Of a DNA stretch of 46,541 nt, positions 790 to 27,000 are shown in pieces; the first letter of the stretch is position 1, and every line of letters begins with the position of its first letter. The stretch spans positions 1-46,541 of the forward strand of contig DASXVO010000036.1 of the NCBI GenBank assembly GCA_036504215.1, written 5' to 3'. The translations under genes and the position numbers were made by a program. The notes under the pieces were generated by a model. The model was not told the origin of the DNA, searched no databases, and worked only from the letters and a program-made list of their open reading frames with translations. The DNA comes from Vicinamibacterales bacterium (GTDB lineage: Bacteria; Acidobacteriota; Vicinamibacteria; Vicinamibacterales; Fen-181).

Positions 790-791
790 AT

Positions 792-2005: not shown

Positions 2006-2147
2006 ACGGGATCTGCCCAGTTACACCGATTTCGGTTTTGGTGTCGTGCGCAGGCGCGGTCTCCTCAGGGCCCCCGGACGAGTTCGAGGGAGGGCGCGGC
2101 CATCAGTGCGCCCGCCTGTCGTCCCAGCGTTGGGGAACAGTTCGAAG

Positions 2148-2176: not shown

Positions 2177-2241
2177 TGGCCAAGGCGCTCAACGGGGCGT
2201 GATGCCGACCCCTCTTGCCGGCAACCCGGAACGTCGTCGGA

Positions 2242-3384: not shown

Positions 3385-3389
3385 AGACG

Positions 3390-4460: not shown

Positions 4461-4546
4461 CGCCCCCTAGGCTACCCGCTGCCCAGGTGCGTGTCCAGTC
4501 GAGTCGCCGGGCGACGCTGGGCCGCACTGTCGCGCGCGCGCCTCTT

Positions 4547-5287
4547 TCACTTGACCCGCGGGAACCGCCGGTCCAAGTCCAGATTAAGTTCGAGGACGTT
4601 CACACGCGGCTCGCCGAGCAAGCCGAAGGTCCGTCCCTCGGTGTGTTGCGCGATCACGGACTGCACCTGTTCCACCGACACTCCACGAGACTTCGCCACA
4701 CGGGCCGCCTGTGCCTGGGCGTTGGCCGGACTGATGTGCGGGTCCAGACCTGACTCTGACGCCGTGACGGCATCCGCCGGGATTGGCGTCTTCGGCATGA
4801 ACACCAACGGTGCCTTGGCGTCGTTGAACGCCTTGATCAGCTTCACATCATCGAGATTGCCGCGGCCGTCCCTGAATGCGTCGACAGGGAACGACGAGTC
4901 GTAGGGGAGGTCATTCTCGAGGCAGTAGTGCACGATGCGGTCCTTGATGCCATCGTAGTCGACGACCTCGTTCTTCTTGTCGTCCGTTCTCGTCGTTCCG
5001 TTCAGGAGCTTCGCGCTGGTCGGCCCCAAGTTCGAACCCGCACTGGCGGAGGCATCGTAGCCGCTGCCGGCGGCGGATGGCCGCGGGTGCACGTACTCAG
5101 GCTTTGTGAACGCCTGCCCGATCAGCCGCGATCCCACCACGTGCCCGTTCGAGAGAATCAAGCTGCCATTGGCCTGATCGGGGAAGACCACTTGGGCAAC
5201 GACGGTGATCACCGCCGGATAGACCAGCCCGGTCAGGACCGTCATCACCAGCATCATCAGGAATCCAGGCTTGAGTTGCGTGAACAT
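4547..5287 (-). CDS. kdpC: KdpC, potassium-transporting ATPase subunit C
   Basis: A 246-residue protein with one N-terminal transmembrane helix (residues 8-32, MMLVMTVLTGLVYPAVITVV), then the KdpC signature VGSRLIGQAFTKPEYVHPRPSA split over residues 51-73, and the C-terminal pattern SGLDPHISPANAQAQAARVA. KdpC is the periplasmic-facing stabilising subunit of the KdpFABC potassium pump. It is longer than the roughly 190-residue E. coli protein because of about 60 extra residues between the YHPRPS and SGLDPHIS blocks (DDKKNEVVDYDGIKDRIVHY and following); similar insertions occur in other non-enteric KdpCs. The ATG has a GGAGG ribosome site and starts nine bases after kdpB. Confidence 0.96.
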   Translation of the reverse strand: MFTQLKPGFLMMLVMTVLTGLVYPAVITVVAQVVFPDQANGSLILSNGHVVGSRLIGQAFTKPEYVHPRPSAAGSGYDASASAGSNLGPTSAKLLNGTTRTDDKKNEVVDYDGIKDRIVHYCLENDLPYDSSFPVDAFRDGRGNLDDVKLIKAFNDAKAPLVFMPKTPIPADAVTASESGLDPHISPANAQAQAARVAKSRGVSVEQVQSVIAQHTEGRTFGLLGEPRVNVLELNLDLDRRFPRVK

Positions 5288-5296
5288 GTGTCCCTC

Positions 5297-7432
<2,136 letters not shown>

Positions 7433-7435
7433 CAC

Positions 7436-9235: not shown

Positions 9236-9243
9236 CGCAGGCC

Positions 9244-9330
9244 TCAAAACTTCTCAGGCTTGAACATCGCCCACCCGAGGTAGACGAGGAGAAACACCGC
9301 CACGACGCCGGAAACGATGTAGTCGAACAT
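9244..9330 (-). CDS. kdpF: KdpF-like small membrane subunit
   Basis: A 28-residue peptide, MFDYIVSGVVAVFLLVYLGW then AMFKPEKF, consisting of one transmembrane helix and the PEKF/PERF ending typical of KdpF. KdpF stabilises the KdpABC complex. It has a GGAGG ribosome site just upstream (GGAGGCCAACC before the ATG) and ends eight bases before kdpA. It is too short for ordinary gene callers, but position and ending leave little doubt. Confidence 0.9.
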   Translation of the reverse strand: MFDYIVSGVVAVFLLVYLGWAMFKPEKF

Positions 9331-9340
9331 GGTTGGCCTC

Positions 9341-9424
9341 CTACACCCGGTCGCAGAGCTTTACGATGGCCCAGAGCGCGAGGAATCCGAGGGCTCCGAT
9401 TGCGAGGTAGAACAGGTCAAGCAC
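9341..9424 (-). CDS. Small membrane peptide preceding kdpF
   Basis: A 27-residue reading frame starting at GTG after a strong AGAGGAGA ribosome site: MLDLFYLAIGALGFLALWAI then VKLCDRV. It is one hydrophobic helix with a short basic and polar tail. A second tiny hydrophobic gene in front of kdpF is common in acidobacterial and proteobacterial kdp operons. Upstream in-frame codons are arginine-rich and have no ribosome site, so the short form is preferred. Role unknown; probably an accessory pump peptide or a membrane anchor. Confidence 0.7.
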   Translation of the reverse strand: MLDLFYLAIGALGFLALWAIVKLCDRV

Positions 9425-9486
9425 GGACGTTCTCCTCTTCCACCGGTCGAACGCCGGTAGTCCTGAAGCGTCTGAGGCACGCCTCG

Positions 9487-10911
9487 CTAGAATGTGACGA
9501 GCACGGCGACGGTGACGCGGTTCTCGGACTTCTGAAGATCGGGCGCCCAATCAGGGACGCGCGATCCAGCCGGCCCGGTGTTTCCGCCGGGCGGCGTCAC
9601 GCCTCCAGGGCCCGAGAAGTACGGGACGTTGGCCGCGCGATGAGTCCCTTCAAAACGGAACGTCACGAACTGGCTCGGCATGTAGTCGAACGTCGTCTGG
9701 ACATCCCAGGCCGTGTAGGGATCGCCGGGATTTGCGGTGAAGTACGGCGTGCCCGAGAAGGCCGTTGCGCCATTGATCGGCGGCATGAGGACCAGGTATC
9801 GCCCGGGGTTGTCGATCGCGCCGCCGCCCACGGTGAAGGCGTACCGATCGTGATCGAACCACATCCGGTGGTAGGCCATGAAGCCGAGAAACGTCTGGGA
9901 AGGACTGGCCGGTGTGCCACCGCCGCAACTGACCCCGCCACCATACTCACATCCGGCATCGAACGTGAAAGTGAACGCTGCCTTCGAGATGGTGGCGTCC
10001 GGCTGGTCGTGGTACTTCACCTGGATGCTGTCATCGGTGTGAATGCGCTTGCGGTCCGGATTCCCCAACGTGTCGACGCCCCAGTAGTTGTTGGCCGTCA
10101 CCGACACCGAACCGTTCGGCCGCCACAGAATCTGGCCGCCGACCCCCGGTGCGTGGTTGAAGCGGCCGTACGACTGCCAGCCGTTGACGATCCACGGCTC
10201 GATCTTCAGCTTGTCGCTCGGGAAGAACTGGATCCGCACACCGTTGAAAAACCACGGTGTGTTCGAGGAGACATAGGACGGCTGGTAGGTCCAGTTGTCG
10301 AACTGGTAGTAGCTCCACAGGCCGACATACGACATGAAGATGCCAGCGTCGACGTTGATGCCATGCATCTTGTCCCAGTGGTAGCCGCCGTACCCTTCTG
10401 AGATGTACCGGTAGGCACTGTCGAGGTTCCACTGGCCCCGCGCCGGGCTGGCGTCGTTACGTGGCGTCGTCTGGGAGTACATCCCGAACTGGGTCATCAA
10501 CCGTCCGCGCACGTTATCGACATGAAAGTCGCCGCCGATGCCCAGCTGCGTGAGCTGCACCTCAGCGTGGCGGAAGATCTCGCTCGAACCGGAAATCGTG
10601 TCGTCCTGCGGGCGGTTGAAGCTGTACGTGTAGTTCGTGTCGACCCTGAACTCGCCCGTGAACGCCCTCGTGTCGAGCGGCGAATCCTTCGTTCGCGGGT
10701 TGCCGGTCAGCCACGTGAAGTCCGCGAACGCGAACGGCTCGGCCGGCTTGGGCTTGGCGGTGTCGGGAGGCGGAGACGGCGCCGGCCGGTCTTGCGCGGG
10801 CATTGGGGACGCAGTCTGAGCCCAGGCCGATGAGAGACCCACGTGTGCCGCCAGCAGGCCCACCAGCACTCCGCCGAGGACGGTCCCTCGCCGCCTCAAG
10901 GTATTGCTCAT
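9487..10911 (-). CDS. Outer-membrane beta-barrel porin (OmpL/BBP2-like) in the Kdp cluster
   Basis: A 474-residue precursor with a signal peptide (basic MSNTLRRRG, hydrophobic GVLVGLLAAHVGLSS, cleavage after AWA near residue 31) and a Pro-rich linker at 35-58. The rest is alternating aromatic and polar beta-strands, such as VDTNYTYSFNRP, GMYSQTTPR and QFVTFRFEGTHRAA, ending VTVAVLVTF with the terminal Phe used by the BAM machinery. It resembles the BBP2 (putative beta-barrel porin-2) group. It lies between a USP-like gene and the small kdp peptides on the same strand, which suggests an outer-membrane entry route for K+ or another cation coupled to the pump; that is inference from position. 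A Cys pair near CEYGGGVSCGGG may form a loop disulfide. Confidence 0.85.
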   Translation of the reverse strand: MSNTLRRRGTVLGGVLVGLLAAHVGLSSAWAQTASPMPAQDRPAPSPPPDTAKPKPAEPFAFADFTWLTGNPRTKDSPLDTRAFTGEFRVDTNYTYSFNRPQDDTISGSSEIFRHAEVQLTQLGIGGDFHVDNVRGRLMTQFGMYSQTTPRNDASPARGQWNLDSAYRYISEGYGGYHWDKMHGINVDAGIFMSYVGLWSYYQFDNWTYQPSYVSSNTPWFFNGVRIQFFPSDKLKIEPWIVNGWQSYGRFNHAPGVGGQILWRPNGSVSVTANNYWGVDTLGNPDRKRIHTDDSIQVKYHDQPDATISKAAFTFTFDAGCEYGGGVSCGGGTPASPSQTFLGFMAYHRMWFDHDRYAFTVGGGAIDNPGRYLVLMPPINGATAFSGTPYFTANPGDPYTAWDVQTTFDYMPSQFVTFRFEGTHRAANVPYFSGPGGVTPPGGNTGPAGSRVPDWAPDLQKSENRVTVAVLVTF

Positions 10912-10923
10912 GTAATTCGCTCC

Positions 10924-11397
10924 TCAGTCGTTCACGAACACGACGACGTAGCCCAGAGCCTCGAGCGTTCGGCGCCACCGGTCCGAGCGAGTTGACCACC
11001 AGCGGTGGCGGCCGCCAATCACGATCAGTGAATGGGCCGAAAGCACCGACGGAATCGCCTGCCGTGGATCGCGGCACAAGCAAACCCTGACGCGAGTGTC
11101 GCCGCCGTCCGCCTTGAGCCGGGCCTTGAAGTCTTCCATTTGGACCGGCGAGAGGCCGCTGGGTTCCTCCAGCGGTGCCCCGAAATCGACCGACCGGAAG
11201 TGGACGAGGGTGACTCCGCGCGTCATCGCGCGCGCCAGACGCCTGGCCACCCGAACGGCGCGCAGGGTGTCTTCGGGCGAGGTGAAGATGACGTAGACGT
11301 CGCCGAACTCGAGATGGCAGGCCTCGCGGCCGGACGAGGAGGGCCCGGCGACATCCGGGGTCTGCGAACTACGTTCGATGAGTTGCTGCATAGCCAC
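10924..11397 (-). CDS. USP-fold-like soluble protein of unknown function
   Basis: A 157-residue protein without signal or membrane segment. From residue 33 the pattern resembles a universal stress protein: VYVIFTSPEDTLRAVRVARRL (strand then helix), GVTLVHFRSVDF (strand 2), RVRVCLCRDPRQAI, then SLIVIGGRHRWWSTRSDRWR, where a USP would have its G-2X-G-9X-G nucleotide loop, and a last strand YVVVFVND. The glycine pattern of the ATP loop is not kept, so nucleotide binding is doubtful. It lies between kdpE and the porin, 12 bases before the porin start, and is probably in the same transcript. It may be another small sensor piece of the dispersed KdpD-type input; this is speculative. Confidence 0.6.
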   Translation of the reverse strand: MAMQQLIERSSQTPDVAGPSSSGREACHLEFGDVYVIFTSPEDTLRAVRVARRLARAMTRGVTLVHFRSVDFGAPLEEPSGLSPVQMEDFKARLKADGGDTRVRVCLCRDPRQAIPSVLSAHSLIVIGGRHRWWSTRSDRWRRTLEALGYVVVFVND

Positions 11398-11452
11398 TTC
11401 CCAGACAGGACCAGTCTAGGAAGCGGGACATCAGGAAGTCATAAGGAGGGCG

Positions 11453-12160
11453 TTAGGATTCTCGACCCTGTTCGGGTGGCAGGTGCAGGCGGTAGCCGAC
11501 CCAGGGCTCGGTGAGGAGGTAGGCGGGCGTAGAGGGCCTGGGTTCGAGCTTCTTCCTCAGCTGGTTGACAACCACGCGAAGATAGTCGACCTGGTCGCCG
11601 TAGTCCGGGCCCCAGACCGCTTGAAGCACCTGCCGGTGCGACAGCACCTTGTTGGCGTGCGTGACGAAATACCGCAGCACGTCGAATTCCTTCGGTGTCA
11701 GGCGCAGGCGCCGGCTTCGAGCGGTCACCTCCCGGGTGTCGAAGTCCACGGTGACCGCCCCCAGCACGACGCGTCCGGCCGGGCCTTGTCCTCCGGGGCT
11801 GCGCCGGAGCGCCGCCCGAATGCGTGCCGACAGCTCGGACGGCTTGAACGGCTTCGTCACATAGTCATCGGCTCCCGCGTCAAGGGCCTCGACCGCGTCG
11901 GCCTCGCTGTCTCGAACGGTGAGCATGATGACCGCGATCTCGGAGGTAGCTCGAATCGTCCGGCACACGTCCAGCCCGTTCATGCCGGGCATGTTGATGT
12001 CGAGCAGCACCAAGTCGAAACGGGATTCACGGAGCTTGTCGAGTGCTACCTCGCCGTTCTTGGCGTCATCGACTTCGAACCCCTGACCGCTGAACGTCAC
12101 TTTCAGCACTCGCCGAATTTGCGGGTCGTCGTCCACCACGAGAATCCGCCCGCCGCTCAT
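11453..12160 (-). CDS. kdpE: KdpE-type response regulator (OmpR family)
   Basis: A 235-residue OmpR/PhoB-type regulator. The receiver domain covers residues 5-118: acidic pocket VVDDD, phospho-acceptor D54 in VLLDINMPG, T81 in MLTVRD and K103 in TKPFKP. The winged-helix DNA-binding domain covers about 135-228 (LRLTPKEFDVLRYF, VLSHRQVLQAVWGP, DYLRVVVNQLRKKLEP). The LRVVVNQLRKKLE recognition helix and the pairing with a DUF4118 kinase are characteristic of KdpE. The start overlaps the stop of the upstream kinase by four bases (ATGA). Expected to activate the pump genes when potassium is limiting. Confidence 0.93.
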   Translation of the reverse strand: MSGGRILVVDDDPQIRRVLKVTFSGQGFEVDDAKNGEVALDKLRESRFDLVLLDINMPGMNGLDVCRTIRATSEIAVIMLTVRDSEADAVEALDAGADDYVTKPFKPSELSARIRAALRRSPGGQGPAGRVVLGAVTVDFDTREVTARSRRLRLTPKEFDVLRYFVTHANKVLSHRQVLQAVWGPDYGDQVDYLRVVVNQLRKKLEPRPSTPAYLLTEPWVGYRLHLPPEQGRES

Positions 12161-13587
12161 CGCGAGGCTCCGTCTGTCGGCAGCGACATCGTGAACGCGG
12201 TGCCCCGTTCGGACGAACTCGCCACGCTCACCGTGCCGCCGTGGGCCTGGGCAATATGTTGGACAATGGCGAGTCCCATGCCGGTTCCAGGCATTTGGTT
12301 CGCGTTCGCGCCCCGATAGAAGCGCTCGAAGAGACGACTTTGTTCGCGCTCGGGGATCGGAGGCCCAGCGTTCTGGACGACCAGGTCCACGGTGGCGGGG
12401 TTCGCGCGTCCGGTGATCGCGATCGCCGACGCCGGCGGCGAGTACTTGACCGCGTTGTCGAGCAACTGGCGCAGGGCTAGCCCGACGAGATCCCGGTCCA
12501 CCCGCGCAGGCAGCGTCTCTGGAAGGCTCGTGACAATCGTGTGGCCGTCGAGCCGCGGTTCGAACTTCCGGACCGCTGACACGACGATGGCCGAGAGGTC
12601 GTCGAAATCGACCCGCAGGTCGAAATCACCGGCATCGACTCGGACCATTTGCACCGCATCGGTCACGAGCGACTGCAGGCGGTCGAGGCCTTCGTCGATG
12701 ATGGCTGCCAATTCCTGGTTGCGCGCCCCAGGGACGCTCGACCGGAGGTCGGCAGCAGCCACGGTCATCGACGTCAGCGGGGTCTTGAACTCGTGGGCGA
12801 GCGCATCCAGCACCGTGGCGCGCAGCTCGCTGCTGTGCCTGGAGGCTTCCGCGCTCGCGGCGGCGTCCTGGCTGCGACCGCGCTCCAAGCCGATCGCGGC
12901 CAGGTTGGCGATCGACTGCACCACGGTATCGGTGAGTCCGGCGTCCGGAATGGCCAGGCTTCCGATTGGCGCACCGCCGAGCTGGATGGCCATCACTACC
13001 ATCGGTCCCTCGCGCACCGACACGGCCTGTCGCGCGACCTCCCGGAGCTTCTGGTTGATGGACGCCACCTCCGTCGGCCCCGACCACGCCACGGTCCCGG
13101 TTCGGTGATCGAACACGGCAACCGTGTCGAGGTCGAACGACTCGGCGATGTGGCGGACCATGGCCGCGGGCACCGACGGACGGGCGGGCGACAGCAGCAG
13201 CGCCCGACTGAGCGCGTAGAGGCGCTCGAGATCGCGCTGTCTGGAGAGCGCCTCGACATTCCTGTTCCGCGCGCGACCCGACAGCTGGCTGGCGACGATC
13301 GCCGTCACGACGAATCCGGCAAGGGCCACCCAGTTCTGAGGATCGGCAATCGTCAGGGTGCCGACCGGCGGCAAGAAGAAGATGTTGAAACAGAGTGTGG
13401 CGACCAGCGAGGAAGCCATCGCCTCGGCGATGCCCCATGCCGTCGCGACGAGGAGGACCACGACGACGTAGCTCAGCGCGACGGTCGTCGGGTTCACGGA
13501 CAGCAACGAGAAGTACAGCGCGGTGATCGCGGCGACTGAACCAACGGAGAGCGCGATCCGGGCGAGGAGGGCGACACGGCGGGTCAC
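12157..13587 (-). CDS. KdpD-like membrane sensor kinase lacking the KdpD/USP input half
   Basis: A 476-residue histidine kinase. Residues 7-103 hold four hydrophobic segments of the DUF4118 type found in KdpD, including the family-typical NIFFLPPVGTLTIADPQNW (68-86). A GAF-like region spans about 120-235, and the HisKA domain carries H265 in LDALAHEFKTPLTSM. The ATPase domain has N-box LRQLLDNAVKYSPP, GPPIPEREQSRLFERFYRG and G-box GTGMGLAIVQHI. It is the C-terminal half of a KdpD; the KdpD and USP input domains are in two other genes at the far end of the cluster. The start is GTG with a weak GATGAG site. It should phosphorylate KdpE, whose gene overlaps its stop. Confidence 0.92.
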   Translation of the reverse strand: MTRRVALLARIALSVGSVAAITALYFSLLSVNPTTVALSYVVVVLLVATAWGIAEAMASSLVATLCFNIFFLPPVGTLTIADPQNWVALAGFVVTAIVASQLSGRARNRNVEALSRQRDLERLYALSRALLLSPARPSVPAAMVRHIAESFDLDTVAVFDHRTGTVAWSGPTEVASINQKLREVARQAVSVREGPMVVMAIQLGGAPIGSLAIPDAGLTDTVVQSIANLAAIGLERGRSQDAAASAEASRHSSELRATVLDALAHEFKTPLTSMTVAAADLRSSVPGARNQELAAIIDEGLDRLQSLVTDAVQMVRVDAGDFDLRVDFDDLSAIVVSAVRKFEPRLDGHTIVTSLPETLPARVDRDLVGLALRQLLDNAVKYSPPASAIAITGRANPATVDLVVQNAGPPIPEREQSRLFERFYRGANANQMPGTGMGLAIVQHIAQAHGGTVSVASSSERGTAFTMSLPTDGASR

Positions 13588-14038
13588 GATGTTCTCATCG
13601 GCGAATTCCTGGAACGAGCCTACCCAACGCTGCCTGAGCTGTCAAACCGGATGTCGCTCGCGGAACGCACCCGCTCCCGGCCCCGCTCAACGAACGGCTG
13701 ACGGCGTCGGACCGCCGTGCCGCCAGACACCTGCCGCCCGCCGCCCGCCCGCTTGACGGCCCCTACTGGTCTGGGTACTGTGTCTGTTTAACCTACACTC
13801 CGCTTCGCTCGCGGGATGGGGGGAGGACGGGACCCATCCTCCTGACTTGATGGCACTGCAGGACGCTTCCGGCCAAAACCCGTCAGCTAGCCTCGGAACC
13901 CCGTCGGTCCCACGGACGCGCAGCGGCGGCGACCATTCCGCCGCCTGACAGGATGTGCTGGCGGTCATAGCAACCTGCCTCCGCCGTGGCTCGGCGTCGT
14001 CTTGTGGCCCGGTCGCTGTGAGTCCTTGAGAAGCACGC
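13588..14038. other. Divergent intergenic region between the kinase gene and the APC permease
   Basis: About 450 bp that must contain the promoters for both the kdp regulatory genes (leftward) and the permease (rightward). There is a less GC-rich patch around 13775-13800 (TGTGTCTGTTTAACCTACAC). I could not define -35/-10 pairs, a KdpE box, or a c-di-AMP riboswitch by eye. Confidence 0.4.
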
Positions 14039-16282
14039 ATGCAGACAGATAGCTCGGTTCACGCGACACCCCGCGGCCCGATCAAGGTCGTTGTCGCCAC
14101 CACGGTGTTCCTCTCGTTCATCTCGTTCTGGCGGGCTGCGGCCATCGTGCTCGGCGACCTTGGTTCGTCGGCCTTCTACGCCGGCGGGATCGCGGAGCAG
14201 GCGGTCGGAAAGGCCGCACCCTGGTTCATCCTCGGCGTCATGCTCTTTTCCTACGCCGTGCGCGCCATCTACGTCGAGAGTTCCGTGATGTTCGTGCGCG
14301 GCGGAGTGTACCGGGTGGTCAAGGAAGCGATGGGCGGCACGATGGCGAAGCTGTCGGTCTCCGCCCTGCTGTTCGACTACGTCCTGACCGGTCCGATCAG
14401 CGCGGTGTCCGCCGGCCAGTACATCGTTGGTCTCATGTCCGATGTGCTGGGACACTGGAACGCGCGCCTGCCGTTCGCCCCGAATCACGTGGCCGCCGCA
14501 TTTGCGATCGGCATCATCTCTTACTTCTGGTGGCGCAACACACAAGGCCTGCGCGAGTCGAGCCATGACGCCTTGCGCATCATCCAGATCACGACGGCCA
14601 TGGTCGTAATCCTCCTGGTCTGGTCGGTCGCGACCCTGCTGTTGCGCGGCGGCGCGCTGCCGCCTCCGCCCACGGCCGAACACCTGCACTTTTCGGACGA
14701 AGCGCTCGGCTGGCTGAAGGGCACTCCGCTTCCGACGTTTACAGTGATCGCGCTGCTCATCGGCTTTGGCCACTCATTCCTGGCGATGAGCGGCGAGGAG
14801 TCGCTCGCACAGGTGTAACGCGAGATCGAGCACCCAAAGGTGCTCAACCTCCGGCGAACCGGGCTGGTCATCTTCCGCTATTCGCTGATCTTCACGTCCT
14901 CGGATAGTTTCCTCGCCGTGGCGTTCATTCCCGACGCGACTCGTGCGAGATTCTCGGACAACCTCATCTCCGGGATTGCGATGCACTTGGTTGGTCCGCT
15001 CTGGTTGCGACTGTTCTTCCAGGGCTTCGTCGTGCTGGTGGGCTTCCTCATCCTGTCCGGCGACGTCACCACGGCGATTGTCGGGTCGAACGCCGTGCTC
15101 AACCGCGTGTCCGAGGACGGGGTGCTGCCCGAGTGGTTCCGGCATCCTCATCGGCGGTTTGGGACGTCGCATCGGACGCTCAATGTGATCGTCGGTCTGC
15201 AGTTGCTCACCGTCGTGCTGAGCGGCGGCGACATCTATCTGCTGGGCGAGGCGTACGCGTTCGGTGTCGTCTGGAGCTTCGCGTTGAAAGGGCTGGCCGT
15301 CCTGGTCCTGCGCTACAAGGAGCCTGGACCGCGCGAATGGCGCGTCCCGTTGAACTTCCGTCTGTGGAACACCGAAGTGCCCGTCGGACTGGCGTTGACC
15401 ACGCTTGGACTGTTCTCTGTGGCCCTGATTAACTTGTTCACCAAGCGTGTCGCCACGGTATCGGGCTTTGCCTTCACCATGGTGATCTACGTCGTATTCG
15501 TCGTTGCGGAACACGCCAACGCCAAGCGACGGCGATCAGCGGGCGGCGTGGATCAGTTCCAGCTGGCGCCAGCTGACGACATCGATCTCGACGGCGTCGG
15601 CATCCGCCCTGGCGGTGTGCTCGTGCCGGTTCGCGACTACAACACGCTGGCGCACCTGAAGTGGGCGCTCGGCCGGCCAGAGACCGCGCAGCGCGACGTG
15701 GCAGTGCTGACCGTGCGCCTGCTTGATCGAAGCGACACCACGACGCACAACCTGCAACAGGGTGATCTCTTCTCCGACTACGAACAGCTGCTGTTCACCC
15801 GGGTCGTCGCGGTGGCGGAGCGGGAGGGGCGACCGGTGAAGCTGCTCGTGGTGCCGGCGACCAACGTGTTCGACGCCGTCGCACGGACGACTGTCCGCCT
15901 CGCGTCGAGCGAAATCGTGCTGGGCGATTCGGCGAAGTTCAGCGCGGACAACCAGGCGCGGCTGCTCGGGGAGGCTTGGGAACGAGTCGAGGGTAGCCAG
16001 CAGCTGGCCACGCGTCTGCTGGCGTACAAGCTGACGGGTGAGGTCCAGCACTACCAGTTGGGCGCGCACGCGCCGGGGCTCACGCGAGACGACCTTGACC
16101 TGATTCACGAACTGTGGCTCGAAATGGGAGGGACGGCCGGAGATCTCCATCACCGGGACATTGTCAGGGCGGCGCTCGAGGAGTTCCACATGGACCTGAA
16201 GGGGCCACGCAGAGCCGAGGTGCTGGCCAGGGTCCGCGGTGGCCAGTCTTCAACACCAAGTGGTGAGCCCCCTCGACAATGA
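14039..16282 (+). pseudogene. APC-superfamily permease with C-terminal USP-like domain, interrupted by in-frame TAA
   Basis: The reading frame from the ATG at 14039 runs to a TAA at 14816-14818, and the same frame continues open to 16282. Together they encode about 747 positions: roughly twelve membrane segments, then a cytoplasmic region (from about residue 500) ending in a USP-like part. The protein reads EESLAQV, stop, REIEHPKVLNL, exactly where related permeases have a continuous EESxAQVYREIE-type motif, so the stop looks like a TAC-to-TAA change at one Tyr codon. No other frameshift or stop is visible. The family is amino-acid/polyamine/organocation permeases; with a c-di-AMP- or nucleotide-type cytosolic domain and the kdp neighbours, a KimA-like potassium importer is possible, but an amino-acid permease is equally open. 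Options are a recent loss of function, stop readthrough, or a sequence error. Confidence 0.85.
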
Positions 16283-16355: not shown

Positions 16356-16377
16356 GTTGCCCTTTTCTTGCCCTTTG
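16356..16377 (+). repeat. Isolated copy of the repeat's 22-bp tail motif
   Basis: The motif GTTGCCCTTTTCTTGCCCTT plus TG is identical to the tail of repeat copies B (1978-1999) and C (16868-16889), and it sits in the otherwise featureless gap after the permease. It contains the internal tandem TGCCCTTT. It shows that the tail can occur without the rest of the repeat. The remainder of 16283-16510 shows no gene. Confidence 0.8.
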
Positions 16378-16512
16378 GCGGCAGCAACACCCGGCTCCGG
16401 CCGGCAAGGAGCAGCAACGGGCGGATCCGGCTGACCGCTTGGTTCTTCAGTGGGTTGCGGTGATTCCGGCTCGGTGGGGCACGGGTCGGCAACCGGCGGC
16501 AAGGTGGGCTCG

Positions 16513-16895
16513 TTCGTGCTACGAACCAGGAGGTCGTCCGCCTTCGCTCGCCGGGAGATCCATGCGAGCTACGGCGAGACCACGCCGCAGCGCGAAGCGC
16601 GGAGGCGGGCAGGTTCGAGTCCTGCAGGGCGCGCCACTTCTTCGCTCGCCACGCATCCGGGCGAGCGTTCCATCAACGCCCCAGTCCCGAGCGAGCGAAG
16701 CGAGTCGAGGGGCAGGGCGCGCCAAATCCTTCCGGATCAACAACTTATACTGTTCAGCCACTGGTCGATCGCGTTGTAGCTGCGACCCAGAGGGTCGCAG
16801 CCGTCGCGCGCGGGATTCGGCCAGATTCTGCGAAGTGACCTCGGTCGCCGTCCTTCGATCACCGGGCGTTGCCCTTTTCTTGCCCTTTGCCCGTC
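16513..16895 (+). repeat. Structured dispersed repeat, copy C (most complete)
   Basis: About 383 bp, in the same orientation as copies A and B. In order: the head from TTCGTGCTACGAACC; a tRNA-Arg-like T-arm and acceptor end at 16609-16636 (GCAGG, loop TTCGAGT, CCTGC, then AGGGCGCGCCA); a GCTCGCC/GGCGAGC hairpin; a second GGGCGCGCCA; and an unusually good hairpin at 16779-16801, with a 10-bp perfect stem (GCTGCGACCC/GGGTCGCAGC) and AGA loop. It ends with the conserved tail GATTCGGCCAGATTCTGCG through CTTGCCCTTTGCCCG. Its head is nearly identical to copy A and its tail to copy B. No protein is likely; it could be a non-autonomous mobile element or a structured RNA. Confidence 0.87.
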
Positions 16896-17085
16896 AGGGG
16901 ACCTGTGTTGGAGCAGGTACCGATGATGAAGGTCGAGTTCACCTCCGCACCGCAGTTCCCCGTCGCTCCCAGGGCATCCATGAGCTGGGTTGGCGCGGCA
17001 ATGCGCCGAGTCGCCGACACGAGCCGCTCCCGTCGGCGACGCCGTGGAGAGACGCCCAACTCTTCGCGACTTCGAGAACTGGCCT

Positions 17086-17690
17086 CTACTCCAACCTGAC
17101 GAGCCCTCGGCGGGCCGCGACCTTGATCGCCTCCGTGCGACTCGTGACGCTCAGCTTCTCGAACAGGTGTCCAAGGTGGGTCTTGAACGTGCGGTTGCTG
17201 ATGGCGAGCGCATTGGCGATTTCCGGGTTCGCCTTGCCCTCCGCCAGCAACTGTAAGTTCGTGAGTTCTCGCGGCGTGAGCCGCACATGGGTCACGCCTT
17301 CGGCGAGCTACTCGGCCGCCGCCGGCACCAAATACGTCTTCCCGGCCAGGACCGTGCGGATGCAGCGGACGAGATCCTCCGCCGAGATGTCCTTCAGCAG
17401 GTAGGCCTTCGCTCCCGCGTTGAGCGCGCGCGCGATCTCGTCGTCGGTGTCGTCCGTCGTGAGCACGATGATGCGCGCGGCGGGATCGAGCGCGCGGACC
17501 CGCTGGACGGCCTCGACGCCCTCCATCTCGGGCATCCGGGGGTCGAGGAGCGTGATATCCGGCCGATGGTGTTCGAAGGCACGAACGGCCTCGACACCGT
17601 TGCCGGCTTCAGCTACGACCTCGCGCCTATGGCCGTCATCAATCTCGCAAACGCACCGTGCGCTCGGGCCGAAGTGGGTCGTCGTCCTTC
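17086..17690 (-). pseudogene. Broken NarL/FixJ-type response regulator
   Basis: The receiver part reads VVAEAGNGVEAVRAFEHHR, then DITLLDPRMPEMEGVEAV with the phospho-Asp, IIVLTTDD, and GAKAYLLKD. After AGKTYLVPAAAE comes an in-frame TAG (17308-17310). The same frame then continues LAEGVTHVRLTPRELTNL with a complete LuxR-type HTH (NPEIANALAISNRTFKTHL) to the stop at 17086. The first 35-40 receiver residues, including the acidic pocket and start codon, are missing; only an IDDGH-like remnant is visible. Two independent lesions make this a pseudogene. It lies directly downstream of the CheY-like gene on the same strand and may be what remains of the output regulator of that unit. Confidence 0.85.
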
Positions 17691-18190: not shown

Positions 18191-21100
18191 ATCGAGAACT
18201 GGCCCACCAGGTTCTGGAGTTGCCCAGCCATCTTGGCGAGGGCCTGTGCCGCCGTCTGAGTCTCGGCTGCGCTCTGCGCGGCCGACTGCGCGGCGTCGGC
18301 GACGCTCGACACGTTGCGCGCGATCTCGGCCGACCCGCGAGCCGCCTCGGTGATGTTGCGGCCGATCTCGTTGGTCGTCGCCGTCTGCTCCTCGACGGCT
18401 GACGCGATCGTGTTGGACACATCGTCGACCTGACGAATGATCCCGGCGATCTGGCCGATGGCCGCCACCGCGCCCTTGGTCTCGCCCTGGATCCCCTCGA
18501 TCTTTCGGCTGATGTCCTCGGTCGCCTGCGCCGTCTGCTTGGCCAACTCCTTCACCTCGTGCGCCACGACCGCGAAGCCCTTGCCGGCGTCCCCGGCGCG
18601 CGCGGCCTCGATGGTCGCGTTGAGTGCCAGAAGGTTCGTCTGTTCCGCGATCGACGTGATGACCTTGATGACGTTCCCAATCTCGGCGGACGACTCTCCC
18701 AGCTTCTGGACGGTGTCGTTGGTCGACTCGACGAACCGCACCGCATTCTTCGCCATTTCGGCCGCTTCGTTGGCGGACTTCGAAATCTCGCGGATCGACG
18801 CGAGCATCTCCTCGGAGCTGGTCGCGATGACGGTGAGGTTCTTCGACACCTGCTCGGTGGCGGCCGAGACGACGCCGGTTTGCGTGGCGGTCTCCTCGGC
18901 GTTGGCCGCCAGTTGCTGGCTGATCGCGGTGAGTTCCTCCGACGAGGTGCCCAGGCCCTCAGCGTTCTGACCGATGTCGCGCATTGAGCCGCGCAGGTCG
19001 CGGACCATCGTATTGATCGAGTCCTTCATCGCCGCGTGGTCGCCAGCGTACGTGCCTTCCACCTCCCGGCGGAGGTCCTGCTTGGCCACGCTCTCGAGCA
19101 CCTTCGCCGCCTCCGCGATCGGCGTCGTGATGGCGTCGAGCGTCGCGTTGAAGCCGGCGATCACCTTCCGGTACTCGCCCTGGTGCTTCGTCGCGTCGGC
19201 GCGGGTCGCCATCCGGCCCTCGACGGCGGCCTGCGACAGCGTCCCGACATCGGCGACGAGCGCCTGGACGTTGGTCCGGATGGCGTTCATCCCGTTCGTG
19301 AGGATGATCTGTTTCCCCGGGAGGGGGCGCATCTCGCGGGCGAGATTGCCCGCGGCATACTCGTTCATGATCCCGATGGCCTCGACGACCGGGACCGATA
19401 TGGCGTCGAGAGCCTCGTTGATGCCTTTCGCTAGGCGCGCGTACGCGCCGGCCAGCGAGCCGACGTCGCAGCGGCTCTCGACGTCGCCGGCCTTCTGCTC
19501 GCCGATCACCGCTTCCAGGGCGGAGGAGAGGCGGGTGAGGTTGTCGATGCAGGCATTCAGATTGTTCTTGATCTCGTTGAAGTCGCCTTGGTAGATGTCG
19601 GTGATCTTCGGCGGGATGTCGCCCTTCGAGATGCGATCCACGTACTCCGCGGCCACGTTCAGCGGCCCAATGACCGCATCCAGCGTCGCGTTGACGCCCG
19701 CAATGACCGCCCGGTAGTCGCCCTGGTGCCTGGAGGCATCGGCCCGAACGGCGAGGCGGCCCTCGACCGCCGCCTTGGACAGTGTTCCGGTGTCCACGAC
19801 CAACGCTTGGATGCCTTCCATCATCGCGATGAAGGCCGGGATCAGCTCGTCGTTCTCCGAGCGGCGCCCGATCGGCTTGTACTTCGCGAGGTCGCTGAGG
19901 TCGCCGGCCGCGATGTGCAGCGCCACGCCCTGAAGGGCGAGCAGCCGTTCGCGCACCTCATCTACCGCGCGGCAGACCTCGGCGAAGATCCCCTGGTACT
20001 GCCCGGACGCGGCCAGGCGGTAGTCGTTGACAGCCATCCGCTGCAGGACGGCGTTCGCCTCGACGAGGCCGCCCAGGCCGTCGATGCACTGGTTGAGGTT
20101 GTTCTTGAGCTCGTTGAAGTCTCCCGCGTAGGCGTCCGTGATCTTCGGTGGGATGTCGCCCTTGGAGATGCGATCGACGTACTCGGCGGCCACGTTGAGC
20201 GGGCCGATCACCGCATCGAGCGTCGCATTGACGCCGGAGACGATCCTGCGGAAATCGCCGTCGTGCTTCGCGGCGTCCGCGCGGGTTGCCAGCCTGCCTT
20301 CGACCGCGGCTTTCGCGAGGGTCCCTGTGTCCTCGATGAGCGCGTTCACCGCGTCGATGCACGTGTTCAGGTTGTTCTTGATCTCGTTGAAGTCGCCCTT
20401 GTAGGGGTCGGTGATTTTCGGCGGGATGTCGCCCTTCGAGATCCGATCCACGTATTCCGCCGCGACGTTCAGGGGACCGATGACGGCGTCGAGCGTGGCA
20501 TTGACGCCCTGCACGATTGTGCCGTAACCGCCGGCGAACGCCGACGCGTCGCCCCGCTCGTCGAGCCGCCCCTCGCGCGCGGCCGCAGCCAGCCGGCCCG
20601 TCTCGGCCGCCATCCGCTGCAGCACTGCGACGGCGCGCGCGAAGTTCTGCGACAACACGTCGCGGTCCGACCTGGGCTCGATCGCGATCCCCAGGTCCCC
20701 CCGGCTGAGCGCGTCGGCCGCGGCCGCGATGCCCTTGATGTAGTCGATCGTCCCCCGGAAGGCGTCTGCGAGCCTTCCGACCTCGTCGCCGGACCGGTAC
20801 TCCACCACGTGGTCGACATCGCCGGCGGCCATCCGGTTGGCTACGTCCGTCATACGAGTGAGCGGGCGGATGGTCAGAAGCGTGATGTACGCGAGCAGGC
20901 CGCACGCTCCCAGAACCCAGACGCACGCGATCCCGCTGATCCACAGTTGCCGCCGAGACATACCGGCGACCGCCGACAGTTCTGCGTGCATCTCCGCCAC
21001 GAGACGCTGGGTGAGGCTCCCAAGCGCCTTCTTGATATCCGCTCCCTGTTTGCCGACCCGGAGCGCCTCGTCCGTGCGGCTGGTCTTCCCGCCGGCCATC

Positions 21101-21507
21101 TCGGTGTAGACGGACGAGGCGCTGGACGTGTAGGCCGAGTGCTCTCGCAACGCGTCCCCGGCGGCGACCCGCGCCGCCTCCGGCACGCGTTCGTCCCTGC
21201 GGACTTGCTCGAGCGCGGCCGCCACCAGCGCGGCCTTTTCTCCCCCGGCCTTCACCGACGCCGGATCGCCCGTCGTCACACCGGTCTCGTAGTCGGTCAA
21301 CTGCTGCTCGAAGGCAGACAGCGCGGCCTGGCCGCCCTGCGCTGCAGGGAACAGCGCGGCGGACATGTCCTCTAGTCGGTTCTGTGACGAACGGCCGCTT
21401 GCGACGACGAACGCCATCGCCACGGCGTAGCCGAGCGCGAGCGCCACGACGAGCGTGACGATCTTCCGGCCCAGACTGAACGACTGCCATTGTGACTTCA
21501 GGTTCAT
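18187..21507 (-). CDS. Poly-HAMP methyl-accepting chemotaxis protein, 1106 residues
   Basis: TM1 is at about residues 14-34 and TM2 at about 188-210, with a helical periplasmic sensor between them (four-helix-bundle-like, Ala-rich). A canonical HAMP follows TM2 ([21 protein letters not shown]), then a long array of divergent HAMP-like units in which the segment [20 protein letters not shown]-type recurs three times, and two related units with GFNATLDAI and AGNLAREM. The C-terminal signalling domain has the standard hairpin [18 protein letters not shown] then [17 protein letters not shown]. There is no CheR-docking pentapeptide. Such arrays of HAMP units are thought to relay and shape signals. 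It is the third gene of an apparent operon, after a periplasmic PBP-like protein and a porin, so those probably supply or present its ligand. Confidence 0.93.
19562..20508 (-). repeat. Three tandem-spaced copies of a 137-bp HAMP-unit repeat in the first transducer gene
   Basis: Copies at 19562-19700, 20101-20237 and 20372-20508 encode FNEIKNNLN-adjacent sequence plus the [10 protein letters not shown] and [11 protein letters not shown] units read on the minus strand. They differ by only a few bases, many of them silent. They are protein-coding repeats, not mobile DNA, but are long and similar enough to recombine with each other and with the three copies in the paralogous gene 5,820 bp away. 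Confidence 0.85.
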
Positions 21508-21563
21508 GGCTTCACCCCGCCGCCCCGAATCCGCGCAACAGGAACAGGTGCAATCACGCCAGA

Positions 21564-22742
21564 TCAGAAGGAGAACGTCGTCTTGAGTGCCAGCACATAC
21601 GAGTGCTCGGCCAGCGCATTCGTTCCCGTGGGGATCATCAGCGCGGTGCCGTGGATCTTGTGCAGCTCGGCCTTGACCAGCCAGTACTTGTTGATGTCGA
21701 CGCGAACCGCTGCGGCCAGGTCCTTGCGGAATCTGGCCACATCGCTCTTGTCGAAGCGATTGAGGTAGTAGTCCTCGTAGTAGGCACCCACCTCAGCGAT
21801 ATCGTTCAGGCGGTAGGTGCTGCTGACGTAGTACGACTCGTCGTCCTGATTCCGCGGGATGACGCCGCCCACGGTCGCTCTGACTTCCTGACGCCGGAAC
21901 TCCGCCGCCAGCACGAGGTTGCGGAACGCGTACTCGCAGGACACGTAGCTCCGGGTCAGCTTCGTGAAGTCCACCGGCAACGCAATGCCCGGGGGCAGGC
22001 CGATCCCCGGCGCCAGGGCTGTGGTCGTTACCTCGACGGTGAACGCCGTCTGGAACCGGGTCACGGCCAGACGCAGACCCTCGATCGGAGTCTGCCACTC
22101 GGCGTTCGCGACATAGGTCGTACCGCCATGAGCGTCGGTCACTTTGACGGGCAGCGCCATCTGGATGCTCTTCGCCACTCCGCCGTCCGCCACCATCGCG
22201 AGCGCGCCCATGTGCAGCTGGTACCCCAGCCGCCCGGCCTGCTTCATCGGGATCGTGCCGTAACCAGCCATCCCGGTCTGGGCGATCGTGCTCTCGCGCG
22301 CGCCATCGTCGTAGGTGCCCTGCGGCAGAAAGATGAAGGTGCGCAACGAGTCGTTGTCGCGGCTCTCGTTGTAGAGGCCGAGCGGCATCTTCACCTTGCC
22401 GAAGCGGATTCCCGTCCAGTCCCTGAGTCGGTAGTCGCCGAGCGCCCAGTCAATGGTCGGCGTGTCCTTCCCGACATCCCCTCGCGCCTGGGCGAACAGC
22501 TGCATGCCGATACGGAGCCGCGCCGTCACCTGCTTCTGGACGTTGAAGCCGAACTCGTTGAAGTTGAAGGTGCCGTCGCCGGTGCCCTTCATCACGTCGT
22601 TGCTGCTCGTGCTCTTCGCGTAGCCTTGGGACACGAACACGTGGACCTGCACGTCGTCGCCCTGCGCGAGCGATGCCGAGGGCAGGGCCGCCAGAAGGAC
22701 AGCGGCGAGAATCGGTGTCAGTCGTCTGGTTCTGGTGTTCAT
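21564..22742 (-). CDS. Outer-membrane porin-like beta-barrel (anion/phosphate-porin style)
   Basis: A 392-residue precursor with signal peptide ([20 protein letters not shown], cleavage after SLA near residue 26). The mature protein has alternating strands typical of a 16-strand porin: [43 protein letters not shown] (the RxGKxxxPxG segment seen in OprO/OprP-type and related porins), [12 protein letters not shown], and a final strand [11 protein letters not shown] ending in Phe. It starts ten bases after the PBP-like gene with a GGGAGA site and precedes the transducer by 56 bases. It probably lets the compound sensed by the neighbouring transducer into the periplasm; the substrate is unknown. 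Confidence 0.83.
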
Positions 22743-22752
22743 CGTCGTCTCC

Positions 22753-23208
22753 CTACTCGACCTTCATGGTCTTCGCCGACCCGGCCGCGGTTCCTGCCGG
22801 GACGTAGCCAATGGCGCCCGGCTCCTTCGCCACATACGCGGCGAGCGCCGCGGGATCGGCGAACGACTTCGGTGCCCCCGCCTTGCCAGTGAATACGAGC
22901 TTCTTCCAGTAGCTGTCGAACTGCGCCGGCGTCTTGCCGAGGACCTCCTGCAGGAACGCCTTGTGCGCCGCGCCGTCCTCGAGGACGACGATCTTCACCG
23001 CCGTCCCATTGCTCCACGTCGTCTTGTCGCCGAGGAACATGGCCTTGAGGTCGGTGCTGCTCACCGCCGCGCCGGGCGCGCTGCCGTTGGCGATCACCAC
23101 GTACTCCGCGGCCCACGTCGGGGACGAGACCAGCACGGCCGCCGCTGCCAGCACGGCGAGCGCAACGAGGCGCTTCGGGGTCGGTTTCCGCATCACTTGT
23201 CGAACCAT
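22753..23208 (-). CDS. Short PstS-like periplasmic binding-domain protein
   Basis: A 151-residue precursor with a signal peptide (basic start, hydrophobic VALAVLAAAAVLVSS, cleavage after WA near residue 33). The mature part shows the short PBP-like domain pattern of small phosphate-binding-protein relatives: VVIANGSAPGAAVSSTDLKA, MFLGDKTTWSNGTAVKIVVL, FLQEVLGKTPAQFDSYWKK, VAKEPGAIGYVPAG. Full PstS has about 320 residues, so this is one lobe only and cannot clamp ligand alone. I chose the ATG after AAAGGAGC rather than the ORF's first ATG 15 codons upstream. It is the first gene of the PBP-porin-transducer-receiver set with no ABC permease nearby, so a sensory or scaffolding role is likelier than transport. 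Confidence 0.8.
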   Translation of the reverse strand: MVRQVMRKPTPKRLVALAVLAAAAVLVSSPTWAAEYVVIANGSAPGAAVSSTDLKAMFLGDKTTWSNGTAVKIVVLEDGAAHKAFLQEVLGKTPAQFDSYWKKLVFTGKAGAPKSFADPAALAAYVAKEPGAIGYVPAGTAAGSAKTMKVE

Positions 23209-23221
23209 CGGTTGCTCCTTT

Positions 23222-23760
23222 CGGTTCGGCCGCCGAACGCCGATTCGCCGCACGCGCGGACGCCCGCGTGGCGAACGTCACTTCGACTCCAGCCAGGGAA
23301 TCGACCCGGCAGTTCGGTCCGGAGAGGGACGAAAATCTTGAGGCGGACTGGGAGATCCTTGAGCCTGGCGTCGTGGCTTCAGGGTTGCTCGCGGCGGCCT
23401 GACACGCCGAGGTGGGGTGCGGTTCGGATCGCGGCTAGAGCCTGGTGAGGCCCTCACGGATGGCGTACTTGGTCAACTCCGCGACACTGAGGCGCCAGGT
23501 TCTCCTCCGACCGATTGCCGCTTCAACAAGTAGCCGCGCACGCCCAGCCGCCGCGCCCTGTGGACCAGGTGCGGGTCGGCCTCCGCGGACAGCACGATGG
23601 TCCGCGCGCCGGGGAAGCGCTCCGAAGGCGGCGGATGAATGCCAGGCCGCCGTCCGGCGTGCGGAGGTCGCCGAGGGCCAGGTCTGGCGCCGCCGACTTC
23701 GCCCGGTCAAGCGCCGAGAGCCCGTCGGCGGCTTCGGCCACGATCTGGCTGCATCTTCCT
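23222..23760. repeat. Segmental duplication, degenerate copy (matches 30092-30870)
   Basis: The sequence from the upstream region of the PBP-like gene (CCGCCGAACGCCG at the left edge) through GACACGCCGAGGTGG and into a broken regulator gene matches the region upstream of cheA and its intact NarL-type regulator. Identity is high in the spacer (for example GAGATCCTTGAGCCTGG and GGCGTACTTGGTCAACTCCG in both). Identity then becomes interrupted by deletions. So the intergenic region and regulator were duplicated together and this copy decayed. Confidence 0.85.
23435..23760 (-). pseudogene. Decayed duplicate of the NarL-type regulator
   Basis: Fragments in different frames match the intact regulator at 30302-30940. 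VAEAADGLSALDRAKSAAPD then LALGDLRTPDGGLAFIRRL is a receiver piece in which the D-L-R-M-P motif has become D-L-R-T-P. A frame change is followed by remnants of GARTIVLSAEADPHLVH and LGVRGYLLKR. The DNA encoding most of the HTH is missing, and the C-terminal end LSVAELTKYAIREGLTRL survives. No start codon with ribosome site is left. Confidence 0.85.
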
Positions 23761-23963
23761 CGCCTCCGGACCGTGCCGAGTCAGACGGTGGTCGCGCGAG
23801 CGAGGGCAGAACGGCCTCGTGGACCTCGTGCGGTTTGGGGAACGAGGGCGGCGCTGACACGCGGATGGCGTCGAGGGGGGTGCGCTGCCGGGACCCGCCT
23901 GCACGAGTCCCGGCGCCATGGCACGGAGCCGACGGCGCTATCCGCGCCCGACTTCGCTGGAAA

Positions 23964-23990
23964 GACCGCTCGTGTCACGCAAGAGCGGTC
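23964..23990 (-). terminator. Probable intrinsic terminator of the cheA-cheW-transducer operon
   Basis: An 8-bp perfect stem (GACCGCTC with GAGCGGTC) and 11-base loop lie 16 bases beyond the transducer's stop codon, and on the minus strand the stem is followed by TTTCC. The T-run is short but the position fits a terminator well. Confidence 0.55.
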
Positions 23991-24006
23991 GTCGGTACGC
24001 CGACCG

Positions 24007-27000
24007 TCACATCGAAATCTCTCCGACCAATGCCTGGAGTTGTCCCGCCATCCCGGCAACCGATTTCGCGGCCTTCTCGGTGTCCGCGGCGCCCTGTGCG
24101 CCCGATTGAGCCGCTTGGGCGACGCTCGCCACGTTACGCGCGATCTCGGCCGAGCCGCGTGCGGCTTCGGTGATGTTCCGCCCGATCTCGTTGGTCGTCG
24201 CCGTCTGTTCTTCGACGGCAGACGCGATCGTGTTCGACGCATCGTTGATCTGGCGAACGATCTCGCCAATCTGGCCGATCGCGCCGACCGCGCCCTTGGT
24301 CTCGCCCTGGATCCCCTCGATCTTGCGGCTGATGTCCTCGGTCGCCTGCGCGGTCTGCTTGGCAAGCTCCTTCACCTCGTTCGCCACCACCGCAAAGCCC
24401 TTGCCCGCGTCCCCGGCGCGCGCTGCCTCGATGGTCGCGTTGAGCGCGAGGAGATTCGTCTGCTCCGCAATCGAGGTGATCACCTTGATGACGTTGCCGA
24501 TCTCCACCGACGACTCGCCAAGCTTCTGGACGGTCTCGTTCGTCGAGTCGACGAACTTCACCGCGTTTCTCGCCATTCCGGCCGCGTCGTTGGCTGACTT
24601 GGCGATCTCGCGGATCGAGGCGAGCATCTCCTCTGAACTGGTGGCGACCACCGTGAGGTTCTTCGACACCTGCTCGGAGGCCGCAGAGACGACATTGGTC
24701 TGAGTGGCGGTCTCCTCCGCGTTGGCCGCCATTTGCTGGCTGATCGCCGTGAGCTCTTCCGATGATGTGCCGAGCGCGTGGGCGTTCTGACCGATTCCCT
24801 GCATCGAGGTGCGCAGGTCCCGTACCATGGTGTTGATCGAGTCCTTGATCGCCGCGAGGTCACCCGCGTACGTCCCTTGCACTTCCGTGCGAAGGTCCTG
24901 CTTGGCGACCCGTTCCAGCACCTTCGCGGCTTCCGCGATCGGCGTCGCGATGGCGTCGAGCGTCGCGTTGAACCCTGCGATCACCTTCTGGTAGTCGCCC
25001 TCGTGTTTCGTGGCGTCTGCGCGGACGGCGAGCCTCCCCTCCGCTCCAGCCCGTGCCAGCTGCTCTCCGTCGGCGATCAGGGCCAGGAGGTTCGTGCGGA
25101 GCCGGTCCATCATCTCGTTCGCCACCACCTGCTTGCCCGGCAGCTTCTTCAAGACCGGTGTGAAGTCCCCGGCGGCATAGGCCCTCAGGATGTTCAGGAT
25201 CGTCAGGATGTTGCCGACGTGCAGTTGCACCGCTTCATTGACGCCCGCCATCATCTGCCTGTAGGCGCCGGAGAACTGGTCCACCGGCACCACCGCCTCG
25301 ATGTCTCCCGCCTTCTGGGCGTTGTGCAGCTCGCCCATCCGGCTGAGCATGGCGGTGAGTGTCTCCGTGAGCCCGTTCAGGTTGTTCTTGATCTCGTTGA
25401 AGTCGCCCGCGTAGCTCTCGGTGATCTTGGGCGGAATATCGCCCTTCGAGATCCGATCCACGTACTCCGCGGCCACGTTCAGTGGCCCAATGACCGCATC
25501 CAGCGTCGCGTTGACGCCCGCGATGACCGTCCGGTAGTCGCCCTGGTGCCTGGAGGCATCGGCCCGAACCGCGAGGCGGCCTTCGACCGCCGCCTTGGAT
25601 AGCGTCTGCGTGTCCACGACCAGCGCCTGGATGGCCTCCATCATCGCGATGAAGGCCGGGATCAGCTCGTCGTTCTCCGAGCGGCGCCCGATCGGCTTGT
25701 ACTTCGCGAGGTCGCAGAGGTCGCCGGCCGCGATGTGCAGCGCCACGCCCTGAAGGGCGAGCAGCCGTTCGCGCACCTCATTTACCGCGCGGCAGACCTC
25801 GGCGAAGATCCCCCGGTACTGCCCGGACGCCGCCACGCGGTAGTCGTTCGCCGCCACGTGCTGCAGGACGGCGTTCGCCTCGACGAGGCCGCCCAGGCCG
25901 TCGATACACTGGTTGAGGTTGTTCTTGATTTCGTTGAAGTCTCCCGCGTAGGCGTCCGTGATCTTCGGCGGGATGTCGCCCTTCGAGATGCGGTCGACGT
26001 ACTCCGCCGCCACATTGAGCGGGCCAATGACCGCGTCCAGCGTGGCGTTGACCCCCTCCACGATCTTCCGGAAGTCACCGCCGTGCTTCGACGCGTCGGC
26101 ACGTGTTGCCAGCCTCCCCTCGACGGCCGCCTTCGACAGCGCCTTCGAGTCGGTTACGAGCGCGTTGATCGCGTCGATGCAGACGTTCAAGTTGTTCTTG
26201 ATCTCGTTGAAGTCACCCGCGTAGGCATCGGAGATCTTCGGCGGGATGTCGCCCTTGGAGATCCGATCGACGTACTCGGCGGCGACGTTCAGCGGCCCGA
26301 TCACCGCGTCCAGCGTGTCGTTCACGCCCTTTACGATGTCGTGGTAGCCGCCCTGGAACTTCGCGGCGTTCCCGCGCGTGGCCAGCCTGCCCTCGACGGC
26401 CGCCCTCGCCAGCCCTCGGGTCTCGTCCGCCATCTCGCGCAGCGTCGTCGTCATCTCTCCGTAGGCCCTGGCGGCCTCCTTCAGCCGGCCAATCATGCCG
26501 TCGAACGCCTTCGCCAGTTGTCCGACCTCGTCACCGCGGTCGAGCCGGAGCTCCGTGGCAGTGACCGTCAGGCTGCGCCCGAGGTCGCCGCGCGCGAGGG
26601 CGTCGAGCTCCGCCGTCATCGTCCGCAGGTCGACGTCGCCGACCTGCTTGGCGAGAGCCACGACCTGGCCGACCGGCTTCGAGATCGACCGCGCCAGGAC
26701 GAAGCCCAGCGCGAGCGCCGCGAGGACCCCGACGCCGATCAGGATCGCCATCGTCCGCGTCGCCGCATCGGCGGTGGCCCTGTTGTTGTCGGAGATCCTC
26801 TTCGCCACCTGGATGTTGTAGCTCGTCAGAGTGTCGAAGGCATCCTGGGTCTGCCGGACCGTCGCCGCGCCCTCGTTGCGGAGCAGGGCAACCGCCTCGG
26901 CCTTCTTGTTCTGGGCCGACAGCGCGTTCAAGCGGTCCGCCAGGTTCATGTATCCCGTCCAGGCGGCCTGCAGGGCCTGGAAGTTCTGCTTGTCCTGTTC

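Follow-up and report, generated by a model that had tools for sequence, protein, structure and literature searches.

A probable tRNA-Arg(ACG) attachment-site scar split by a dispersed palindromic repeat in a Vicinamibacterales bacterium

Tyrosine recombinases that target tRNA genes frequently cross over in the anticodon loop, and insertion sequences of the IS1111 type enter integron attC sites. The closest published case that we found to the locus described here is that of Dehalococcoides, for which portions of one report (PMC3146451) describe tandem genomic islands behind ssrA, with a copy of the gene's 3' end bounding every island. According to the same portions, these islands target the tmRNA, involve a serine-family recombinase and a 20 bp repeat, and in some cases have no integration module (PMC3146451). 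Short palindromic repeats, REP among them, are well known in bacteria, as sections of two further papers relate (PMC2229807, PMC12306157).

We analyzed a stretch of 46,541 nucleotides (the window; contig DASXVO010000036.1 of assembly GCA_036504215.1, here C36) from a Vicinamibacterales bacterium. As in the portions cited for Dehalococcoides, islands probably stand in a row behind one RNA gene and are bounded by copies of its 3' end. Unlike what those portions describe, the target is a tRNA-Arg, the integrase is a tyrosine recombinase (PF00589), the copy extends from the anticodon loop to the CCA, and a palindrome interrupts the copies of the window. The inserted palindrome resembles the REP-type repeats of the cited sections (PMC2229807, PMC12306157) in being short, folded, dispersed, mostly intergenic and without a gene of its own. 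It differs from them in its length of about 70-100 nt, its several inner hairpins and the lack of a fixed end tag in 108 copies, and in its repeated use of tRNA attachment scars, a use of which those sections give no case. Like IS1111-type elements, it is mobile DNA that sits at a fixed position within a recombination site, but it has no transposase gene and its target is a tRNA half. In the open-licence literature, whose scope leaves most subscription journals outside, none of the papers that we found describes palindromes within displaced tRNA attachment sites.

Two pieces of the window, 16518-16536 and 16609-16636 (both + strand), together reproduced positions 32-77 of tRNA-Arg(ACG) base for base, from the anticodon loop to the CCA. 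The left piece equals positions 32-50 (19/19) and the right piece, GCAGGTTCGAGTCCTGCAGGGCGCGCCA, equals positions 50-77 with the T-arm, the acceptor strand and the CCA (28/28); between them lies a 72-nt palindromic repeat (16537-16608, + strand), placed at the variable-loop/T-stem border and marked by covariation over 46 relatives. The gene itself is located on another contig, on the minus strand of C52 (C52:5627-5703). It was the sole ACG tRNA at the 30 loci scanned, among 46 tRNA matches, and the only full-length match above 84% in the genome among the matches listed. The 14-base T-arm core alone was within chance (2 matches, 0.85 expected), whereas the full match at 16609-16636 was beyond it. 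The anticodon-loop half CTACGAACCAGGAGG recurred at 1, 1687 and 16519 (4 matches at up to 2 mismatches, 0.04 expected), and the 17-base T-arm was found exactly at 8 places in the genome, 2 of them tRNA-Arg genes. An earlier note, made from the letters of the window, had recognized the tRNA-Arg-like 3' end and had proposed a comparison with the tRNA-Arg genes of the genome, and this comparison found the same T-arm and acceptor in tRNA-Arg(ACG); its fear that the T-arm match might be limited to two copies was unfounded. The left half, the palindrome between the halves and a 21-base repeat (TTGCCCTTTTCTTGCCCTTTG) were absent from that note. Since both halves match tRNA-Arg(ACG) with the palindrome between them, the T-arm and CCA end belong to a tRNA half, of which they form the tail. 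The copy begins in the anticodon loop, like the 3'-half copies in relatives, and the tRNA part reads, from its sequence, as a duplicated attachment-site half in an island setting, the typical footprint of tRNA attachment. It is of an ordinary kind, an attachment-site scar in a probable tandem island array.

The earlier note had likened the element to a tRNA-derived mobile element or to an RNA recognized by tRNA enzymes. Such a tRNA-like RNA would account for the perfect T-arm and CCA end and for a folded, covarying structure next to them, but ARAGORN called no tRNA in the window and no Rfam family matched there, leaving neither a complete tRNA, nor a cloverleaf with acceptor stem, nor a tRNA-like RNA; a simple scan gave no promoter-like site at the element, its 5' half is missing and its pieces show no difference from the local tRNA gene. 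The 10-bp stem with an AGA loop on which the note had dwelt is real at 16779-16801 (+ strand, z = -3.95), yet this fold is confined to its own copy: the one at 1885-1921 lacks it (z = 0.38) and a third copy, at the end of C1, has additional mismatches. The covariation that the note had suggested looking for was present in a different structure, the inserted palindrome (46 copies); this hairpin is not conserved. We therefore regard a tRNA-like or tRNA-derived RNA as very improbable; mobile DNA is indeed involved, as an attachment-site half and not as a tRNA-derived retro-element. That nothing here looks coding agrees with the overlapping mechanical ORF (16439-17404), whose third codon positions carry no clear G+C excess.

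The window holds three attachment copies, all split at the variable-loop/T-stem border by a palindromic repeat of 71-72 nt. The copy at the contig start (1-160, + strand) comprises tRNA positions 33-50 (1-18), the palindrome (19-90), the T-arm (91-107) and the acceptor tail (148-160), with a second, different palindrome pair between the T-arm and the tail. The copy at 1686-1788 (+ strand) has lost its T-arm and comprises tRNA positions 32-50 (1686-1704), a variant of the palindrome (1705-1775) and the acceptor tail (1776-1788); like the first, it was recognized by its matches to tRNA-Arg(ACG) and to the palindrome. Extra acceptor tails stand behind another kind of palindrome at 235-247 and at 16686-16724 (+ strand), where reading of the sequence places this second kind at 16686-16712 and the tail copy GCAGGGCGCGCCA at 16712-16724. 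Between two attachment copies lie a TumE-type toxin gene (792-1196; PF20126) and an HTH partner (1193-1570; PF25212), both on the + strand (792-1570). A potassium-transport (kdp) segment also lies between two attachment copies (3390-16282, no single strand assigned), in which domain matches identified KdpD-like, KdpC and KdpA proteins, a response regulator, a kinase, a porin and a permease, and a P-type ATPase subunit that we took as KdpB. The 21-base repeat TTGCCCTTTTCTTGCCCTTTG occurs on the + strand at the left end (1979-1999) and the right end (16357-16377) of this segment and beyond the attachment copy (16869-16889), three matches with 0 expected, and is a possible arm-type site of the integrase. 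Because split copies bound both the TumE-type and the kdp segments, the window holds a probable tandem island array. At 14039-16282, adjacent ORFs in different frames correspond to the first and second halves of one amino-acid permease (PF13520), which is a frameshifted or split gene. At 18991-26463, chemoreceptor-type genes with HAMP arrays contain a seven-copy family of 300-nt repeats (61-88% alike), which suggests that receptor genes were duplicated.

The 16 window ORFs scanned, on the 1-16282 side and in the adjacent region, included no integrase. An integrase beside the intact tRNA, as expected of an island, was found outside the window on C52, where a PF00589 protein is encoded at C52:4215-5537, directly downstream of tRNA-Arg(ACG) and convergent with it. 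The order there is tRNA-Arg(ACG), integrase, an AbiEi-type gene and, at the contig end 5.5 kb from the tRNA, a split copy. The far boundary expected of an island is likewise present, in the window, as a copy of the tRNA 3' part, exact over positions 32-77 and split. Contigs C36, C32, C1 and C52 all terminate in one common repeat, and therefore the assembly broke there. The contig-end repeats suggest a join of C52 and C36, and the four contigs, broken within the repeat, are likely to lie in one continuous array. Related integrase pieces adjoin tRNA-Arg(TCT) on C81 and tRNA-Arg(CCG) on C33. The integrase of a relative (G022), used as query in this genome for the cognate enzyme of TTGCCCTTT-flanked segments, returned one distant match (29% identity). 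On C33 (C33:142471-142690; L078:4472-4690), two units stand in tandem behind tRNA-Arg(CCG), and in each of them a flank and a palindrome are joined by a further copy of the tRNA tail, TCGGGCGCGCCA.

An uninterrupted and a filled site could be compared within the order. In G008, tadA and tRNA-Ser come directly after tRNA-Arg(ACG) (unfilled site), and in G019 tadA and tRNA-Ser are reached past 3.8 kb of extra DNA ending in an attachment copy (filled site); none of four tested proteins of this 3.8-kb stretch matched an integrase. For the present array, tadA and tRNA-Ser lie on C40, and the 12 kb examined around them held no tRNA-Arg piece that would mark its unfilled site. We also found 12 uninterrupted 3'-half copies, one in this genome (L074) and the others at L199, L200 and L306 to L314, some of which derive from another tRNA-Arg, judged by the anticodon side. 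Plain halves outscore split ones in the search among the matches listed, and 12 plain against few split copies is accordingly not a rate. Overall, tRNA-Arg is a common island target in these relatives.

We then characterized the palindromic repeat with a covariance model built from six copies, scoring at most 150 candidates here and 21 per relative genome; since candidates were limited, the copy numbers are lower bounds. In this 5.9-Mb genome the repeat occupied at least 10 distinct places, listed in 19 rows, since a near-palindrome can score on either strand. Of these 10 places, seven are in tRNA scars, five of them Arg (C36:19, C36:1705, C36:16537, C32:9620 and C52:52) and two Asn (C60:30233 and C78:3311), and the other three (C60:26298, C85:1243 and a weak match on C59) lie outside; the copy at C36:19 may be the end copy of C32 or C52, and the safe count is therefore 6 of 9. 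The repeat is dispersed through the bacterial order, with matches at E 1e-4 in at least 59 of 198 genomes (this one included), some with at least about 20. In relatives, the flanks of 108 copies placed 104 away from tRNA scars and four within them, three in tRNA-Asn of G022 (L164, L209, L217) and one in G122 (L272).

Covariation gave no signal with six copies only. For 46 copies drawn from 112 for spread over genomes and not by score, an alignment made from sequence only had the pairs of the named structure in 96.0% of cells, against 38-51% when partners were slid by 1-3 columns. Changes on both sides of a pair numbered 35 cells against 16.5 in shuffles, and five of the six pairs of the first inner hairpin showed compensatory change. 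These results show that the repeat family has retained its fold, a finding compatible with DNA and with RNA alike. An origin as REP/RAYT elements was considered and rejected: the flanks of the 108 copies carried no invariant tetranucleotide tag of the GTAG or CGTC type, and presence of the Y1 transposase (PF01797; 96 of 149 genomes, with one weak match in this genome, G000) did not clearly track copy number, G022 and G023 having many repeat copies and no PF01797 match. A GYAGG target motif on the right flank, suspected from the tRNA cases, was unsupported as a general rule by the 108-copy flank counts, and insertion into loops of other palindromes was unconvincing (8 of 108, against 3.2 in shuffles with a maximum of 8). 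Short direct repeats surrounded 38 of the 108 copies against 7.9 in shuffles (maximum 13), an excess inflated because copies of one genome share flanks.

The tRNA-Asn locus of G022 has the same layout as the Arg locus, with an intact tRNA, an integrase and two split copies. The tRNA-Asn scars, in this genome and in another family, are split at the same point as the Arg scars, the variable-loop/T-stem border, and the orientation of the palindrome relative to the tRNA is identical in all scars. In a third family, the scar of G122, which we call tRNA-Asp-like by its anticodon loop, is split five bases further on, and 8 kb examined in that genome contained no intact gene for it. Such a recurring split of tRNA scars is unusual. 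Its position could be explained if the palindrome were a working part of the attachment site, an integron-like combination of anticodon-loop core and folded DNA carried by the islands. This would fit the point and orientation that Arg and Asn scars have in common across two families, the split copies on either side of the kdp segment and the small segments with toxin-antitoxin-type genes between sites. We nevertheless consider it quite unlikely: 104 of the 108 copies in relatives lie outside tRNA scars, there are twelve plain attachment copies, the split of the Asp-like scar lies elsewhere, and the inner hairpins vary in length and sequence between scars.

By contrast, a strong competitor is that the palindrome landed by chance in neutral displaced tRNA halves and was then multiplied by island recombination, with neither targeting nor lock, to which we give only slightly less than an even chance. 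Four tRNA-Arg split sites share a nearly identical stretch of 107 bp, and few insertion events are therefore needed. The tree of the 46 copies was poorly resolved; its well-supported branches require the label 'in tRNA scar' to change at least twice, a low number that suits chance landing, and the best tree had 6 such changes (bootstrap 5-6; shuffled mean 7.5; 43 of 500 shuffles as low). Against chance speak the 7 of 10 places in tRNA scars in this genome, the base position that Arg and Asn share, and the single orientation in all scars. The Arg copies are separate in the tree from the Asn and Asp-like copies and, together with the two forced changes, this makes at least two independent insertions likely, with Arg and Asn entered at one common point. 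These numbers do not separate targeted insertion from selection for broken scars or from chance with duplication. The more ambitious proposition, that targeting or selection placed the palindromes at one point, that an integron-like, tRNA-anchored array shuffles internally and cannot leave, and that this lock arose more than once (Arg, Asn, Asp-like), appears improbable to us.

Taken together, we are largely confident that the element is a displaced attachment copy of tRNA-Arg(ACG), derived from tandem islands and later split by a dispersed palindrome. Tyrosine-recombinase islands would recombine in the anticodon loop of tRNA-Arg(ACG), each integration rebuilding the tRNA at the near end and pushing the old 3' half, from the anticodon loop to the CCA, to the far end. 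Repeated rounds would yield tandem islands separated by 3'-half copies. These displaced halves, free of selection for tRNA function, took in the dispersed palindrome at the variable-loop/T-stem border. A split copy keeps the anticodon-loop core with the tRNA body broken, and a crossover rejoining it to the tRNA 5' half would leave no recognizable tRNA-Arg(ACG). When the 5' half was joined in silico at the anticodon loop, ARAGORN recovered a tRNA from all five plain copies, one with a changed anticodon being called tRNA-His and one (G038_att0) representing the 3' portion of a gene that is intact, and from none of the three split copies. Split copies thus yield no recognizable tRNA by computation, and restoring the gene from one should therefore be harmful. 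Such a cost to the cell, which the tRNA-Arg(TCG) gene present in the genome might soften, would hold the islands and leave exchange between split sites allowed; we propose on this basis that the palindrome may lock the array in place. The displaced copy explains a tRNA end between unrelated gene blocks. The proposed lock offers a simple and testable route to island fixation, in which the displaced half of the target tRNA is broken and leaving becomes costly, and if it is general, split tRNA scars would mark islands unable to leave and could be searched for in any genome.

A scan for the junction pattern across contigs of 84,980 species returned 6 loci, 5 of them without sign of a tRNA scar. 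The sixth (L304, Acidobacteria bacterium fen_299) has a tRNA-Asn-like left half and only the start of the palindrome, followed by other DNA that may be an insertion sequence. In 149 genomes, the pattern of palindrome end plus T-arm matched in 23; among the matches examined in context (forward only), tRNA scars occurred only in this genome and in G022, the remaining matches being judged by the matched 20 bases and by the absence of a nearby tRNA with ARAGORN. In G012 (L201:9900-10420) and G003 (L195:700-1050), a palindrome and a copy of the tRNA 3' tail, CAGGGCGCGCCA, directly follow the intact tRNA-Arg(ACG), and the palindromes ahead of such tails differ between genomes. Finally, orphan 5' halves of tRNA-Arg(ACG) ending just past the anticodon loop were observed at G007:C20:7354-7395 and G030:C40:45966-46008 (L315, L316), the counterpart of the 3' halves.
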